From Variovorax soli NBRC 106424 (GTDB lineage: Bacteria; Pseudomonadota; Gammaproteobacteria; Burkholderiales; Burkholderiaceae_C): 64,000 bases of DNA. The DNA lies in NCBI RefSeq assembly GCF_001591385.1, contig NZ_BCUU01000002.1, positions 62,001-126,000 on the forward strand, given 5' to 3'. Positions 20,523 through 25,603 of the stretch are shown here, piece after piece (the first letter of the stretch is position 1; the number at the start of each line of letters is the position of its first letter). The notes beneath the pieces were generated by a model. The model was given only the letters and a program-made list of their open reading frames with translations, ran no database searches and was not told where the DNA came from. A program made the position numbers and the translations under genes.

Positions 20523-21482
20523 CTAGCCGTGGCGCACTGATCGCGGCTTCCCGGCAGCGCCGATTCCGCATTCGAGGCCGCGATCCCAATCCGCCAGATC
20601 GGCGGCCGCCCGGTAGGTGGTGTTCAGGAAGGCCAGCAAGGCCGCATCAGGATCCGCCGCCGTGCGGACCGCCTCATAAGGCAGCATCCACTCGCCGAAC
20701 GTCTCGCTCCAGAACGCCTGGCCCGGTTGGACGGCCGCCTGGGCGAATCCGGACGGTGTCGGGTAGGCGTACGAAAAGAAGGCCGCCTCGGGATGCGCCT
20801 CGCTGCCGGGCCAGAAACCGGCGCTGCTGACTTCGTGCGAATACGCTTCACGCGTGACCGGATCCGGCAAGCCTGGGAAGCCGCCCGGGTGCAAGGGCGC
20901 CGGCCGGCCCGAGAAGCGCGTGACGGCCAGGTCGAAGCTGCCCCAGAAGAAATGCACCGGGCTGCACTTGCCGAGGAAGCTGGTGCGAAACATCCTGAAG
21001 ACGCGGTCCACCTGCACCAGCGCCCGCCAGAAGCGATGCACCGCATCGCCGTCGTAGGAGGCGTGCAGTTCGTCATCGGGAAAGCGGATCGGGTCCGGCA
21101 CTTCGTTGGGCACCACGTTGATGGCGACCGCAAAGCCTGCCGCCTGCAGTCCGTTCATCAACCGGCGGTAGAAAGAGGCGACGGACATCGGCTCCAAGGC
21201 AAAGCCGCGGTCCGGCCCTTGCGAATGGCGCACCACAAGTCGGTGATCGATGAAGTCGAACTCGATCTCGAGCAGGCCGCCGGCCGCATGGATGGCCGTG
21301 GTGCCGAGCCCGCGTGCGGTGACGTACAGGGGAACCTGCCAGCCGTGATTGAGCCAGGGCGACAGGGTCAGCCGCACCTTGCCGACGATCTGCGTCCACA
21401 GGTGCAAGGTCTGCAAGGTGTCGCGCCACTGGGCGTAGTCCAGTGCCGGCCAAGGCTTCTGAAGGCGCTGAGCTTCTTGCAT
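20523..21482 (-). CDS. DUF5996-family protein
   Basis: A 319-residue soluble protein without signal peptide or membrane helix. The N-terminal WPALDYAQWRDTLQTLHLW followed by TQIVGKVRLTLSPW and LLEIEFDFIDHRLVV are the hallmarks of DUF5996, a family of unknown function found in many soil bacteria. The centre has many His, Trp and Phe residues (VHFFWGSFDLAVTRF), which could form a binding pocket. It faces tRNA-Thr convergently and is divergent from a LuxR-type regulator gene with 133 bases between. No reaction can be proposed from sequence. Confidence 0.85.
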   Translation of the reverse strand: MQEAQRLQKPWPALDYAQWRDTLQTLHLWTQIVGKVRLTLSPWLNHGWQVPLYVTARGLGTTAIHAAGGLLEIEFDFIDHRLVVRHSQGPDRGFALEPMSVASFYRRLMNGLQAAGFAVAINVVPNEVPDPIRFPDDELHASYDGDAVHRFWRALVQVDRVFRMFRTSFLGKCSPVHFFWGSFDLAVTRFSGRPAPLHPGGFPGLPDPVTREAYSHEVSSAGFWPGSEAHPEAAFFSYAYPTPSGFAQAAVQPGQAFWSETFGEWMLPYEAVRTAADPDAALLAFLNTTYRAAADLADWDRGLECGIGAAGKPRSVRHG

Positions 21483-22774: not shown

Positions 22775-23254
22775 TCAATCGATGTACGACAGCGGCAAGG
22801 CGGTGGTGAACTTGAGCTCTTCCATGGCGAAGCTCGAAGAAACGTCGAAGAGCTGCGTGCCGGCGATCAGTCGCTTGTAGACCTTGTCGTAGGCGCCGAT
22901 GTCCGGCACCACGACGCGCAGCAGGTAGTCGATGTCGCCGCTCATCCGGTAGAACTCGACGACTTCCGGAATGGCCTCCACCGTCGCGCGAAACTGGTCG
23001 AACCAGGCTTGCGTGTGTGTGTTGGTGCGCACGGAAACAAACACGGTGACCCCCACATTGACCTTGTGGCGGTCCAGCAGAGCCACATTGCGGGTGATGA
23101 CGCCGGCATCCCTCAGCCGCTGAACGCGCCGCCAGCACGGGGTCTGGGACAGGCCGACCGCCTCGGCCAGCTCGGCCACCTGGCGGCCGGCATCTTCCTG
23201 CAGAAGCGCGAGCAGCTTGCGGTCCGTGGAATCCAATTTCAATAGTTTGGTCAT
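22775..23254 (-). CDS. Lrp/AsnC-family regulator, DecR-like
   Basis: A 159-residue regulator. The N-terminal winged HTH runs from LDSTDRKLLALLQEDAGRQV through LSQTPCWRRVQRLRDAGVI, and a C-terminal RAM domain includes VVEFYRMSGDIDYLLRVVV. The TPCWRR helix and the ending SSFAMEELKFTTALPL closely resemble DecR (YbaO), the cysteine-responsive activator of cysteine detoxification in Escherichia coli. It is transcribed divergently from the desulfurase/dioxygenase/rhodanese gene with only 84 bases between, so regulation of that gene is the natural inference. Confidence 0.9.
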   Translation of the reverse strand: MTKLLKLDSTDRKLLALLQEDAGRQVAELAEAVGLSQTPCWRRVQRLRDAGVITRNVALLDRHKVNVGVTVFVSVRTNTHTQAWFDQFRATVEAIPEVVEFYRMSGDIDYLLRVVVPDIGAYDKVYKRLIAGTQLFDVSSSFAMEELKFTTALPLSYID

Positions 23255-23259
23255 TATTG

Positions 23260-23276
23260 GAATCTGATGCTCATTC
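23260..23276. promoter_or_regulatory. Candidate operator between the DecR-like gene and the fusion gene
   Basis: GAAT-N9-ATTC forms an imperfect inverted repeat six bases from the start of the regulator gene, within the shared 84-base promoter region. Lrp-family proteins often bind such AT-rich imperfect dyads in GC-rich genomes. The assignment is inference only. Confidence 0.3.
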
Positions 23277-23338
23277 TTGGTGGCAACCGGTCGAATTTAG
23301 CACCCGGATTCCACGACTGCATCCGCAGAATTGCGCGT

Positions 23339-25603
23339 ATGGAAATCTATCTCGACGCGAATGCCACGACCCCGGTGCTTGCGCAGGCCCGTGCGGCCGC
23401 GCTGTCCGTCATGGCCGACACCTTCGGCAACCCGAGCAGCATCCACGGCAGCGGCCTGAGGGCACGCGCACTGCTCGACGAGGTCCGCGCGGCGGCGCGC
23501 CGGGTGCTGGGCGCACCGACCGGCCAACTGCTGTTCACCAGCGGGGCCACCGAAGGCATCCAGACCGCCGTGCTGTCTGCGCTGCATGCGTTGCGCCAGC
23601 GCCGTATTGCCGGCGAAACCATTCCCGCCCGCGTGCTCTATGGCGCTACCGAGCACAAGGCCGTGCCCGAAGCGCTTCGGCACTGGAACGCGCTGCTCGG
23701 CCTGCAATTGCACATCGAGGCGATTCCGGTGGGCGCCGACGGGCGCCACGACCTGGCCTGGCTGAGCCGCCACGCGCCTGAAGCGGGGCTGGTGTGCACC
23801 ATGGCGGCCAACAACGAAACCGGCGTCATCAGCGACCTGGACGGCATCGCCGCGGCGCTGGCAGGCAGCGGCGCGCTGTGGCTGGTCGACGGCGTGCAGG
23901 CGCTCGGCAAGCTGCCGCTGCACCTGGCCGAGCGCCGCATCGACTACGCCCCGTTCTCCGGCCACAAGCTGTATGCGCCCAAAGGCATCGGCATGCTCTA
24001 CGTGCGCGAAGGCGCGCCGCTCACGCCGCTGCTCATGGGGGGAGGGCAGGAGGGCGCACTGCGCGCAGGCACCGAGAACATGGCCGGCATCGCGGCACTG
24101 GGCGCGGTGCTGTCCGCGCTGGAGGCGGGTGGCGTGTTCGCGTCGCCCGAGCGCCTTCAGGCCCAGCGCGACCGGCTCGCCGCCGCCTTGCGCGATGCCT
24201 TTCCCGGCGTGGTGTTCAACGCGCCCTTCGAATCCAGCCTGCCCACGACGCTGAACTTCTCGGTGCCCGGCATGAGTGCCCGCATGCTGCTCGACCTGTT
24301 CGATGCTGCCGGCCTGCGCATGAGCGGCGGCTCCGCCTGCAGCGCGGCGCGTGCGCAGCCCAGCTACGTGCTCGAGGCGATGGGCTTGCCCGCGTGGCAG
24401 ACCGAATCGGCGGTGCGCCTGTCCTTCGGCGCGGCCGACAGCGCCGGGCTCATCGACGAAGCCTGTGCCCGGCTGCAAAGCTGCGGCGAAGCCTTGCGTG
24501 CCACCTGCCAGAGCGAGGGTGTCCAGGGGGCCGACGGGCCCGTCGAGCTGCTCACCCGCTTCGTCGTCGACGGCGCCTGCTGCTACATCGTGGCGGACGA
24601 AAGCAGCCGGCGCTGCGTGGTGATCGATCCGCTGCCGCAACTGACGGACAGGCTGGCCCAATGGATCCACTGCCGCCAGCTCGAACTGGCCGCGGTGCTG
24701 GACACGCACAGCCATGGCGACCATGCCTCTTCCGCCCAGGCGCTGCGCGACGCGCTGCCCGCATCCTTGGGCAAGTGCGACGCCGTCGACGGCCTGGGCT
24801 GGCCGAGGGGCGTCCAGGCCCTTGACCTGGGCGGGCATCGCCTCTTGCGGATGTCCGTGCCGGGCCACACCCAGGACTCGACCGCCTATCTCCTGCACGA
24901 CGGATTGCAGCAACTGCGCCTGGCTTTTGTCGGCGACACCGTGATGCCCGGCGCCTTGGGTCGAAGCGACTTCGAGCAGAGCGCGCCTGCGGCGTTCGGC
25001 GCGTCGCTGCGCGCCCTCGAGCAGGCCGTGGGGCCGCACACGCTGCTGTTGCCTGCCCACGACTACGACAACCGGTTCGCCACCACGCTGAGCGTCGAAT
25101 GCGCGGCGCAGCCCCTGCTGGCCGCGGTTTTGCAAGGTCGATTGAGCGACGAGTCCTTTGCCATGGAAAAGGCCGCGCTCGAGCAGGCGTTGGCACCCAC
25201 CGAGTACCAGACCCTGGCCTGCGGTGCGCGCTCCGAATGCAGCCTCTTCGACGAGCAGGTGGAGTTGCCGTCGACCGAACTGCTGGCGCAAATGTCTGCC
25301 GGGCCGGCGCCGATGCTGGTCGACGTGCGCGAGCCCTTCGAGTCGCGCATGGGCATGGCCGGCGGCGCGCTCGACGCGCAGCCGGTGCCGCTGTCCACCC
25401 TGATCAACGCCCTGCCGGCATTGACCCGGCTGCCGGCTGAAACTCCGCTGGTCTTTGTCTGCCGCAGCGGCAACCGCAGTGCGCAGGCGGCGCGGGCGCT
25501 GCGCCGGCTCGGCCATGCGCAGGCCTGGAGCCTGGCAGGCGGGCTTGCGCTGTGGCCCGCGCAGGCGGGCGATGTGCCTGGCGCCGAGGCGCTGGCGATC
25601 TGA
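23339..25603 (+). CDS. Fusion protein: cysteine desulfurase - ETHE1-like persulfide dioxygenase - rhodanese
   Basis: A 754-residue protein with three catalytic domains. Residues about 1-385 are a class V aminotransferase of NifS/IscS type, with PLP lysine K210 in FSGHKLYAPKG and catalytic C334 in GGSACSAAR. Residues about 395-615 are a metallo-beta-lactamase fold with THSHGDH at 456-462, then PGHTQDS, VGDTVMPGALGRSDF and LLPAHDYDNR. These match the iron site and substrate loops of ETHE1-type persulfide dioxygenases. Residues about 640-745 are a rhodanese with C708 in CRSGNRSAQA. The natural order is sulfur removal from cysteine, oxidation of the persulfide to sulfite, and sulfane transfer. 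The start is the ATG whose product begins MEIYLDANATT, the usual desulfurase start. No frameshift is seen across the joints. Confidence 0.92.
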   Translation: MEIYLDANATTPVLAQARAAALSVMADTFGNPSSIHGSGLRARALLDEVRAAARRVLGAPTGQLLFTSGATEGIQTAVLSALHALRQRRIAGETIPARVLYGATEHKAVPEALRHWNALLGLQLHIEAIPVGADGRHDLAWLSRHAPEAGLVCTMAANNETGVISDLDGIAAALAGSGALWLVDGVQALGKLPLHLAERRIDYAPFSGHKLYAPKGIGMLYVREGAPLTPLLMGGGQEGALRAGTENMAGIAALGAVLSALEAGGVFASPERLQAQRDRLAAALRDAFPGVVFNAPFESSLPTTLNFSVPGMSARMLLDLFDAAGLRMSGGSACSAARAQPSYVLEAMGLPAWQTESAVRLSFGAADSAGLIDEACARLQSCGEALRATCQSEGVQGADGPVELLTRFVVDGACCYIVADESSRRCVVIDPLPQLTDRLAQWIHCRQLELAAVLDTHSHGDHASSAQALRDALPASLGKCDAVDGLGWPRGVQALDLGGHRLLRMSVPGHTQDSTAYLLHDGLQQLRLAFVGDTVMPGALGRSDFEQSAPAAFGASLRALEQAVGPHTLLLPAHDYDNRFATTLSVECAAQPLLAAVLQGRLSDESFAMEKAALEQALAPTEYQTLACGARSECSLFDEQVELPSTELLAQMSAGPAPMLVDVREPFESRMGMAGGALDAQPVPLSTLINALPALTRLPAETPLVFVCRSGNRSAQAARALRRLGHAQAWSLAGGLALWPAQAGDVPGAEALAI

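Follow-up and report, generated by a model that had tools for sequence, protein, structure and literature searches.

We analyzed a 64,000-nucleotide stretch of Variovorax soli NBRC 106424 (contig NZ_BCUU01000002.1, positions 62,001 to 126,000; hereafter the window), which has a GC content of 62–69% and comes from a 5.6 Mb genome. It encodes a 754-residue protein that joins a cysteine desulfurase, a metallo-β-lactamase (MBL) domain, and a rhodanese, and next to it, on the opposite strand, a DecR-like regulator. The features of this locus are listed below, with the evidence for each in parentheses.

22775..23254, minus strand: DecR/CyuR-like Lrp/AsnC regulator, 159 amino acids (Pfam HTH_AsnC and AsnC_trans_reg)
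23255..23338, no strand: 84-bp divergent intergenic region, start codon to start codon (coordinates of the open reading frames, or ORFs)
23257..23273, no strand: operator-like palindrome, imperfect in the window, TTGGAATCTGATGCTCA; family consensus TTGGAAT-N3-ATTCCAA (self-complementarity scan)
23339..25603, plus strand: three-domain desulfurase-MBL-rhodanese fusion, 754 amino acids (ORF, Pfam, homologs, AlphaFold2)
23345..24442, plus strand: class-I cysteine desulfurase domain with H106, the pyridoxal phosphate (PLP) lysine K210, and C334 (Pfam, Foldseek, residues in 106/106 proteins)
24581..25042, plus strand: ETHE1-type MBL domain with T456, H457, H459, D461, H462, H510, D533, R542, and D544 (Pfam, PDB sequence matches)
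25220..25222, plus strand: codon for C628, the probable equivalent of the conserved cysteine of persulfide dioxygenases (PDOs), C224 in AcPDO (BpPRF alignment, moderate confidence)
25277..25555, plus strand: rhodanese domain, CRSGNRS loop with C708 (Pfam; CRxGxR in 106/106 proteins)

Two sets of sequences are used below. The family protein set has 106 of the 108 proteins that were extracted: we left out L069, which has a frame break and whose match begins at residue 132, and L077, which is cut by the end of a contig. Three near-copies (L108, L120, and L121) are included in the residue and regulator counts for this set and were dropped for the tree, the palindrome, and the neighbor counts. The 61-genome set is the members of the window's own family with the gene at E ≤ 1e-100, out of 399, including V. 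soli itself. Many of the stretches L127–L169 are from the same assemblies as L006–L085, so counts from the two sets are not additive. By "other orders" we mean the eight loci L096–L103.

An upstream ATG at 23267 would extend the fusion to 778 residues. However, the homologs start at MEIYLDANATTP, and this ATG lies inside the conserved palindrome, so 754 residues is the better choice. Pfam identifies Aminotran_5 at residues 3–368 (E = 9e-54), Lactamase_B at 415–568 (2e-11), and Rhodanese at 647–739 (2e-12). The AlphaFold2 model of the fusion (pLDDT 86.2, pTM 0.84) matches the desulfurase fold of 1ecx in Foldseek (E = 1.8e-30). Desulfurases and selenocysteine lyases took up the Foldseek and VIA-align lists for the full model, with no MBL or rhodanese entry among them, so the MBL fold is unranked structurally; a single-sequence AlphaFold model of the C-terminal half (pLDDT 40.7) was not used. 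The PLP lysine, the catalytic cysteine, and the active-site histidine that characterize cysteine desulfurases are present in all 106 family proteins. The scores fall short of the NCBIfam equivalog cutoffs for NifS (274 vs. 530.75 bits), IscS (181.1 vs. 643.2), and DndA (215 vs. 480). We rejected a role as a DNA-phosphorothioation desulfurase, as the PADLOC matches to DndA/SspA are below the NCBIfam cutoff and were taken as generic desulfurase homology. No dnd or ssp genes were noticed among the ORFs of the window, although no search was aimed at them.

The middle domain resembles PDOs. The best PDB sequence matches of the C-terminal half are to the PDO-rhodanese fusion BpPRF (8e-23, both domains) and to ETHE1 (4chl; 1e-16, MBL domain), and a single phmmer alignment links residues 20–349 of this half to BpPRF (5ve3), as expected for a PDO-rhodanese fusion. 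Using the mutational map of Acidithiobacillus PDO (AcPDO) as the reference, in the portion of PMC6060420 available to us, we found the His/His/Asp iron ligands of type I PDOs (H457, H510, and D533) and the pattern T-H-x-H-x-D-H (T456 to H462). R542, D544, H574, and Y576 correspond to R139, D141, H171, and Y173 of AcPDO; H574 and Y576 are just beyond the end of the Pfam match. C628, which probably has the role that the same paper gives to the conserved PDO cysteine, is invariant across an alignment of 55 rows.

We also considered whether this domain might be a zinc hydrolase, akin to glyoxalase II or a thioesterase and acting on S-acyl or S-sulfo glutathione, instead of an iron dioxygenase. Hydrolases do occur among MBL folds that have these seven ligands, and there is a weak match to NCBIfam's GloB (62.8 bits). 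However, the GloB cutoff is 200.8 bits, the top PDB sequence matches are PDOs, and GRxDF, PAHDY, and C628 all agree with the PDO pattern. Furthermore, the Fe triad survives in two proteins in which D461 and H462 are replaced (L101 and L102). We consider a hydrolase very unlikely, and a PDO is the assignment we use below.

The fusion does not reach the cutoff for Blh (NF040641; 38.9 vs. 625 bits). With C334 of the desulfurase and C708 of the rhodanese on one chain, it has both cysteines of the known desulfurase-rhodanese fusion CD-Rhd. The sequence-only reading of this DNA had described a desulfurase, an ETHE1-type MBL domain, and a rhodanese in 754 residues; our searches agree with it on the coordinates, the domains, and the residues (K210, C334, THSHGDH, H510, D533, H574, and C708).

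That reading also allowed that the domains might be separate in related genomes and this copy an artifact. Instead, all three Pfam domains are present in each of the 120 homologs listed, out of 4,444 scored. Sequencing or assembly error is ruled out, as the gene is in 61 of the 399 family-level genomes and 27 of these have all three domains intact. The gene was found in 31 genomes of an earlier sample of 200 from the same family (E ≤ 1e-100, own genome included). In a phylum-wide sample, 10 of 398 genomes had it at E ≤ 1e-70, including V. soli; eight of these are from other families of the same class. The named relatives among the matches listed are from Variovorax, Comamonas, Roseateles, and their kin, which we take to be Burkholderiales. 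With the protein from locus L099 as the query, we found an identical protein from Shewanella glacialimarina as well as proteins from Shewanella, Colwellia, Pseudoalteromonas, and Paraglaciecola. Across the lists for the two queries, all 241 proteins keep the histidine, lysine, and cysteine of the desulfurase, the seven metal-site residues of the MBL domain, and the rhodanese loop, but these are the closest matches, so the lists are biased toward intact forms. D544 is replaced by asparagine in 118 of the 120 listed matches of the Shewanella query. Some matches of this query lack a precomputed MBL hit in Pfam and one lacks a rhodanese hit, although the residues are kept.

Most of the NCBI names in the match lists are "aminotransferase class V-fold" or "cysteine desulfurase," and some JGI names concatenate the domain names. 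The three-domain architecture is thus visible in existing annotation, yet it is unexplained there. Two of the records, L076 and L038, are labeled Pantoea sp. and Methylotenera sp., yet their genes cluster among copies of the Burkholderiales type; contamination, misbinning, or transfer are possible explanations.

Parts of this architecture are already known. BpPRF (PDB 5ve3, 5ve4, and 5ve5) has an MBL domain followed by a rhodanese on one chain and shares the metal ligands, the arginine, the tyrosine, and probably the conserved cysteine, but it lacks a desulfurase, and its lysine that contacts glutathione (GSH) is not clearly kept in our fusion. ETHE1 and the type I PDOs share the iron ligands and second shell of the window's MBL domain; these are single-domain proteins that act on glutathione persulfide (GSSH) made elsewhere. 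CstB of Staphylococcus aureus, in the partial description we had, likewise combines a PDO with a sulfurtransferase and handles persulfides. It produces thiosulfate and has no desulfurase part.

The closest precedent is the natural CD-Rhd of Pseudorhodoferax sp. Leaf274, in which, according to the available portions of PMC8931425 and PMC12319549, the persulfide on Cys334 passes to Cys466 of the rhodanese. It shares with our protein the one-chain arrangement of desulfurase and rhodanese, the position of Cys334, and the relay to a rhodanese cysteine, and differs in having no MBL domain. It releases H2S with GSH at 8.2 per s (kcat), and the KM of the free enzyme for cysteine is 0.27–0.48 mM (PMC8931425). 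It also persulfidates roGFP2, and when it is fused to roGFP2 the apparent KM for cysteine is 35 μM (PMC12319549). The words "lactamase," "dioxygenase," and "regulator" do not occur in the main text of PMC8931425, nor does "metallo" in the part of PMC12319549 that was available.

Our searches of open-access literature found no description of a three-domain enzyme. The sequence-only reading had likewise known of no described enzyme with the three domains in this order; the two-domain form without the MBL domain has already been characterized as CD-Rhd. What appears to be new is the three-domain form; CD-Rhd and PDO-rhodanese fusions were known.

The middle domain is not always present. The H/K/C residues of the desulfurase and the C-R-x-G-x-R motif of the rhodanese are kept in all 106 family proteins, while the MBL domain varies: 72 proteins have its full metal site, three (L063, L101, and L102) keep just the Fe triad, 18 have a degenerate domain, and 13 have none. 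Among the 61 genomes, the MBL domain is intact in 27, degenerate in 10, and absent in 24, so it is lost in 34. We built a quick tree from the desulfurase domains of 103 family rows, with two other desulfurases as the outgroup; the outgroup branch is long and many branches have weak support. In this tree, "absent" requires five changes and "degenerate" six, with at least four of each forced by supported branches. The branches near the root, from other orders, have an intact MBL domain or the Fe triad only, and L104, with a degenerate MBL domain, lies inside a deep MBL-less branch, so loss is a simpler explanation than repeated gain. The constant core of the family is the desulfurase and the rhodanese, and the MBL domain is a module that has decayed or been deleted several times over.

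Three individual cases stand out. In L101 and L102, the second-site residues of the HxHxDH motif are replaced and the Fe-triad positions are kept, which offers a natural way to test for mononuclear iron in the MBL domain. G457 has one intact and one decayed copy (L140 and L154); we scored it as intact, and it raises the question of subfunctionalization within a strain. In L168, the rhodanese loop is CQxGxR (1 of the 62 copies in the 61-genome set).

Four of the 24 two-domain copies (L107, L108, L159, and L160) have their cysteines at exactly 334 and 466, and the highest-ranking named relatives of L107 come from Pseudorhodoferax (81–90% identical). By residue position, although not by comparison of sequences, the published CD-Rhd therefore matches an MBL-deleted branch. 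Another Pseudorhodoferax sp. record (P0025) has the three-domain form. The release of H2S by CD-Rhd (PMC8931425, seen in part) and the repeated loss of the MBL domain would suit an enzyme whose purpose is to free sulfide from cysteine via thiols, with the MBL domain as a minor or vestigial safeguard against the build-up of sulfide and persulfide. But the metal site is complete in 72 of the 106 sampled proteins and in all 241 of the closest matches, which suggests selection on this site where it is present, and we think that an H2S generator is improbable.

If the MBL domain oxidizes persulfide, then genomes that have lost it might rely on another PDO. We searched for separate PDOs with a single query, the MBL-rhodanese protein of V. 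soli itself, and excluded the fusion's own match, so further types of PDO may have been missed. At E ≤ 1e-30, a separate PDO is present in 6/27 genomes with an intact MBL domain, 9/10 with a degenerate one, and 20/24 without one, or 29/34 where it is lost (Fisher's exact test, P = 1.1e-6 vs. intact). At E ≤ 1e-20, the proportions are 29/34 and 10/27 (P = 1.4e-4). In the first 31 genomes, the association had P = 0.044 at E ≤ 1e-20 and P = 0.0068 at E ≤ 1e-30. Of the 169 genomes in the 200-genome set without the fusion gene at E ≤ 1e-100, 80 have a separate PDO. The V. soli genome itself encodes an ordinary desulfurase (33% identical) as well as the MBL-rhodanese protein used as the query (G000:C58:218-1270, locus L003). 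The latter adjoins a peroxiredoxin-like ORF, as judged by eye; its match is 73–76% similar in four other genomes and about 29–43% in the rest, which suggests that it is a distinct subtype.

The regulator shares 51% identity with E. coli DecR/CyuR, compared with 39% for Lrp, and of the 11 matches to DecR in its genome it ranks first (E = 2e-46; the next is 40% identical, 2e-28). This agrees with the sequence-only reading, which had placed a divergent DecR-like regulator 84 bases from the fusion and had raised its linkage to the architecture as a point to check. The linkage is common, with a DecR-like gene within 3 kb in 68 of 106 loci (61 divergent, 5 upstream and co-directional, and 2 downstream and convergent, with none or a distant one in the other 38), but it is not universal: none of the eight loci from other orders shows it. 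The two genes stay together while their orientation changes. Regulators of this type (E ≤ 1e-42) are in 18 of 31 genomes with the fusion gene but in just 11 of 169 without it (P = 1.7e-10), and 16 of the 18 are within 1 kb of it; together with the 68 linked loci, this rules out chance proximity. In the 61-genome set, the regulator is inside the fetched stretch in 20/24 MBL-less, 15/27 intact, and 0/10 degenerate cases.

Across 60 intergenic sequences, the palindrome is the most self-complementary of 378 placements (z = 5.8), and it is at a fixed offset from the start of the regulator. A composition-shuffle test of the best palindrome anywhere gave a weak result (5.43 vs. 5.07 of 7). By look, and with no motif scan, the palindrome is unlike the E. 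coli DecR/CyuR motif GAAwAAATTGTxGxxATTTsyCC (PMC11408624, seen in part). Closer to the fusion, a -10-like CAGAAT lies within 23326–23338 and ends 7 bp before the ATG, and the 29 short intergenic regions are rich in A at positions -9 to -11, hinting that the transcript may be leaderless.

Related Lrp-type regulators control other cysteine-degrading enzymes, namely cyuPA or cdsH (PMC11408624 and PMC7767077, as far as available). There, the enzyme is an unrelated desulfidase that forms pyruvate, ammonia, and sulfide (PMC11408624). In Salmonella, YbaO/DecR is required for cysteine-induced expression of cdsH and for resistance to cysteine, and its loss lowers the minimum inhibitory concentration of cysteine from 6.4 to 0.4 mM (PMC7767077).

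We think it fairly probable that the fusion serves cysteine catabolism as a sulfur relay that contains its own sink. L-Cysteine would lose its sulfur to the PLP domain, which would free alanine and become persulfidated at C334. From there, by analogy with the relay demonstrated experimentally in the MBL-less relative from Pseudorhodoferax, the sulfane sulfur would move to C708 and next to glutathione, so that GSSH is formed. The MBL domain, with mononuclear iron on H457, H510, and D533, is predicted from its residues to use O2 to oxidize GSSH, yielding sulfite and GSH. The DecR-like regulator, given its homology and linkage, probably senses cysteine and turns the gene on. Surplus cysteine may thus be converted to alanine and sulfite in one molecule. 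We infer GSSH as the transfer species, the iron, the sulfite, the induction by cysteine, and the role in detoxification. The sequence-only reading had proposed a self-contained route from cysteine to sulfite: the predicted route is supported, but it would be self-contained in only some members, because the MBL domain has decayed or been deleted in 34 of the 61 genomes. The core function would be cysteine desulfuration, and where the MBL domain is gone, a separate PDO could take the persulfide.

Several observations weigh against this proposal. By a low-confidence alignment, Q616 occupies the position of the GSH-contact lysine (K212 of AcPDO, and K216 of BpPRF if a presumed 20-residue tag is subtracted from the chain numbering), with an invariant K611 nearby; conservation of this lysine does not extend to a type II PDO (PMC6060420, seen in part). 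In a tree of the 61 genomes, the MBL domain changes state six times, with just two supported independent pairs (on average 1.5 with the association, 0.1 against it, and 0.5 with no difference), so the association with separate PDOs is not significant after phylogenetic correction, a test with little power. Similarly, P = 0.18 for the first 31 genomes once these are collapsed by genus. Five of the 34 genomes that have lost the MBL domain have no separate PDO, and 10 of the 27 intact ones do have one. The regulator is beyond 3 kb or missing in 38 loci, including all eight from other orders. Finally, a TauE-type gene is rare: it is immediately downstream in 2 of 103 loci, and 6–7 kb upstream in L099 and L100.

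A different role might be suggested by the gene immediately downstream on the same strand, which we examined at 103 loci. In 13 of these (L065, L071, L074, L080–L085, L111–L113, and L122), this gene encodes a UPF0176-rhodanese protein, presumably of the TrhO family with a tRNA role, and it overlaps the fusion gene or nearly so in several. Twelve of the 13 members have a decayed or missing MBL domain and one is intact; this neighbor could be a sign of members that do something different, related to tRNA. More broadly, the rhodanese might pass persulfide to partners in tRNA thiolation, molybdenum cofactor synthesis, or protein persulfidation, with the MBL domain merely clearing the excess. The invariant desulfurase-rhodanese core and the optional MBL domain would fit such delivery or signaling, as would the persulfidation of roGFP2 by CD-Rhd and the KM of 35 μM (PMC12319549, seen in part). 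On the other hand, linkage to a DecR-type regulator indicates cysteine excess rather than cofactor demand, and the KM of free CD-Rhd, at 0.27–0.48 mM, suits catabolism (PMC8931425, likewise). Also, the 13 loci have no adjacent regulator and many share a phosphatidylserine decarboxylase gene, so synteny may explain the link to TrhO. We view delivery or signaling as unlikely, and favor the catabolic relay.

In V. soli, we found no match to CDO_I, nor to CyuA (in a search without a positive control). A bolder version of the catabolic relay, which we hold tentatively, is that the fusion is a single-polypeptide "cysteine persulfide oxidase" that takes cysteine sulfur to sulfite without free H2S. 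Controlled by a cysteine sensor, it would stand in for cysteine dioxygenase or desulfidase in aerobic Burkholderiales and Shewanella-like bacteria. The middle domain would have been removed repeatedly, via stages of decay, where a dioxygenase in trans covers its step, and CD-Rhd would be such a remnant. If so, a bacterium in which neither CDO_I nor CyuA was found would have a direct route from cysteine to sulfite that can be assayed. CD-Rhd, which now serves as a cysteine biosensor, would gain an ancestor and, in cysteine excess, a role in physiology, and the intact, decaying, and deleted forms would be a natural series for studying why domains fuse or are shed.

Other downstream neighbors fit sulfur redox chemistry, though they are few. 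The two TauE/SafE-type exporters are at L057 and L066; a thioredoxin-reductase-like gene is downstream in seven loci (one gene further on in L057) and a thioredoxin- or DsbA-like gene in five. At L096, a SLAC1-family transporter gene lies downstream, and upstream, one ORF removed, is a PALP gene of the cysteine-synthase type. Other recurrent genes, for phosphatidylserine decarboxylase, the kynurenine pathway, and an ammonium transporter (all by eye) and for a histidine kinase (by Pfam), seem to reflect local synteny. Elsewhere in the window, a DUF5996 protein is encoded at 20523–21482 on the minus strand, between tRNA-Thr and a LuxR-type regulator.

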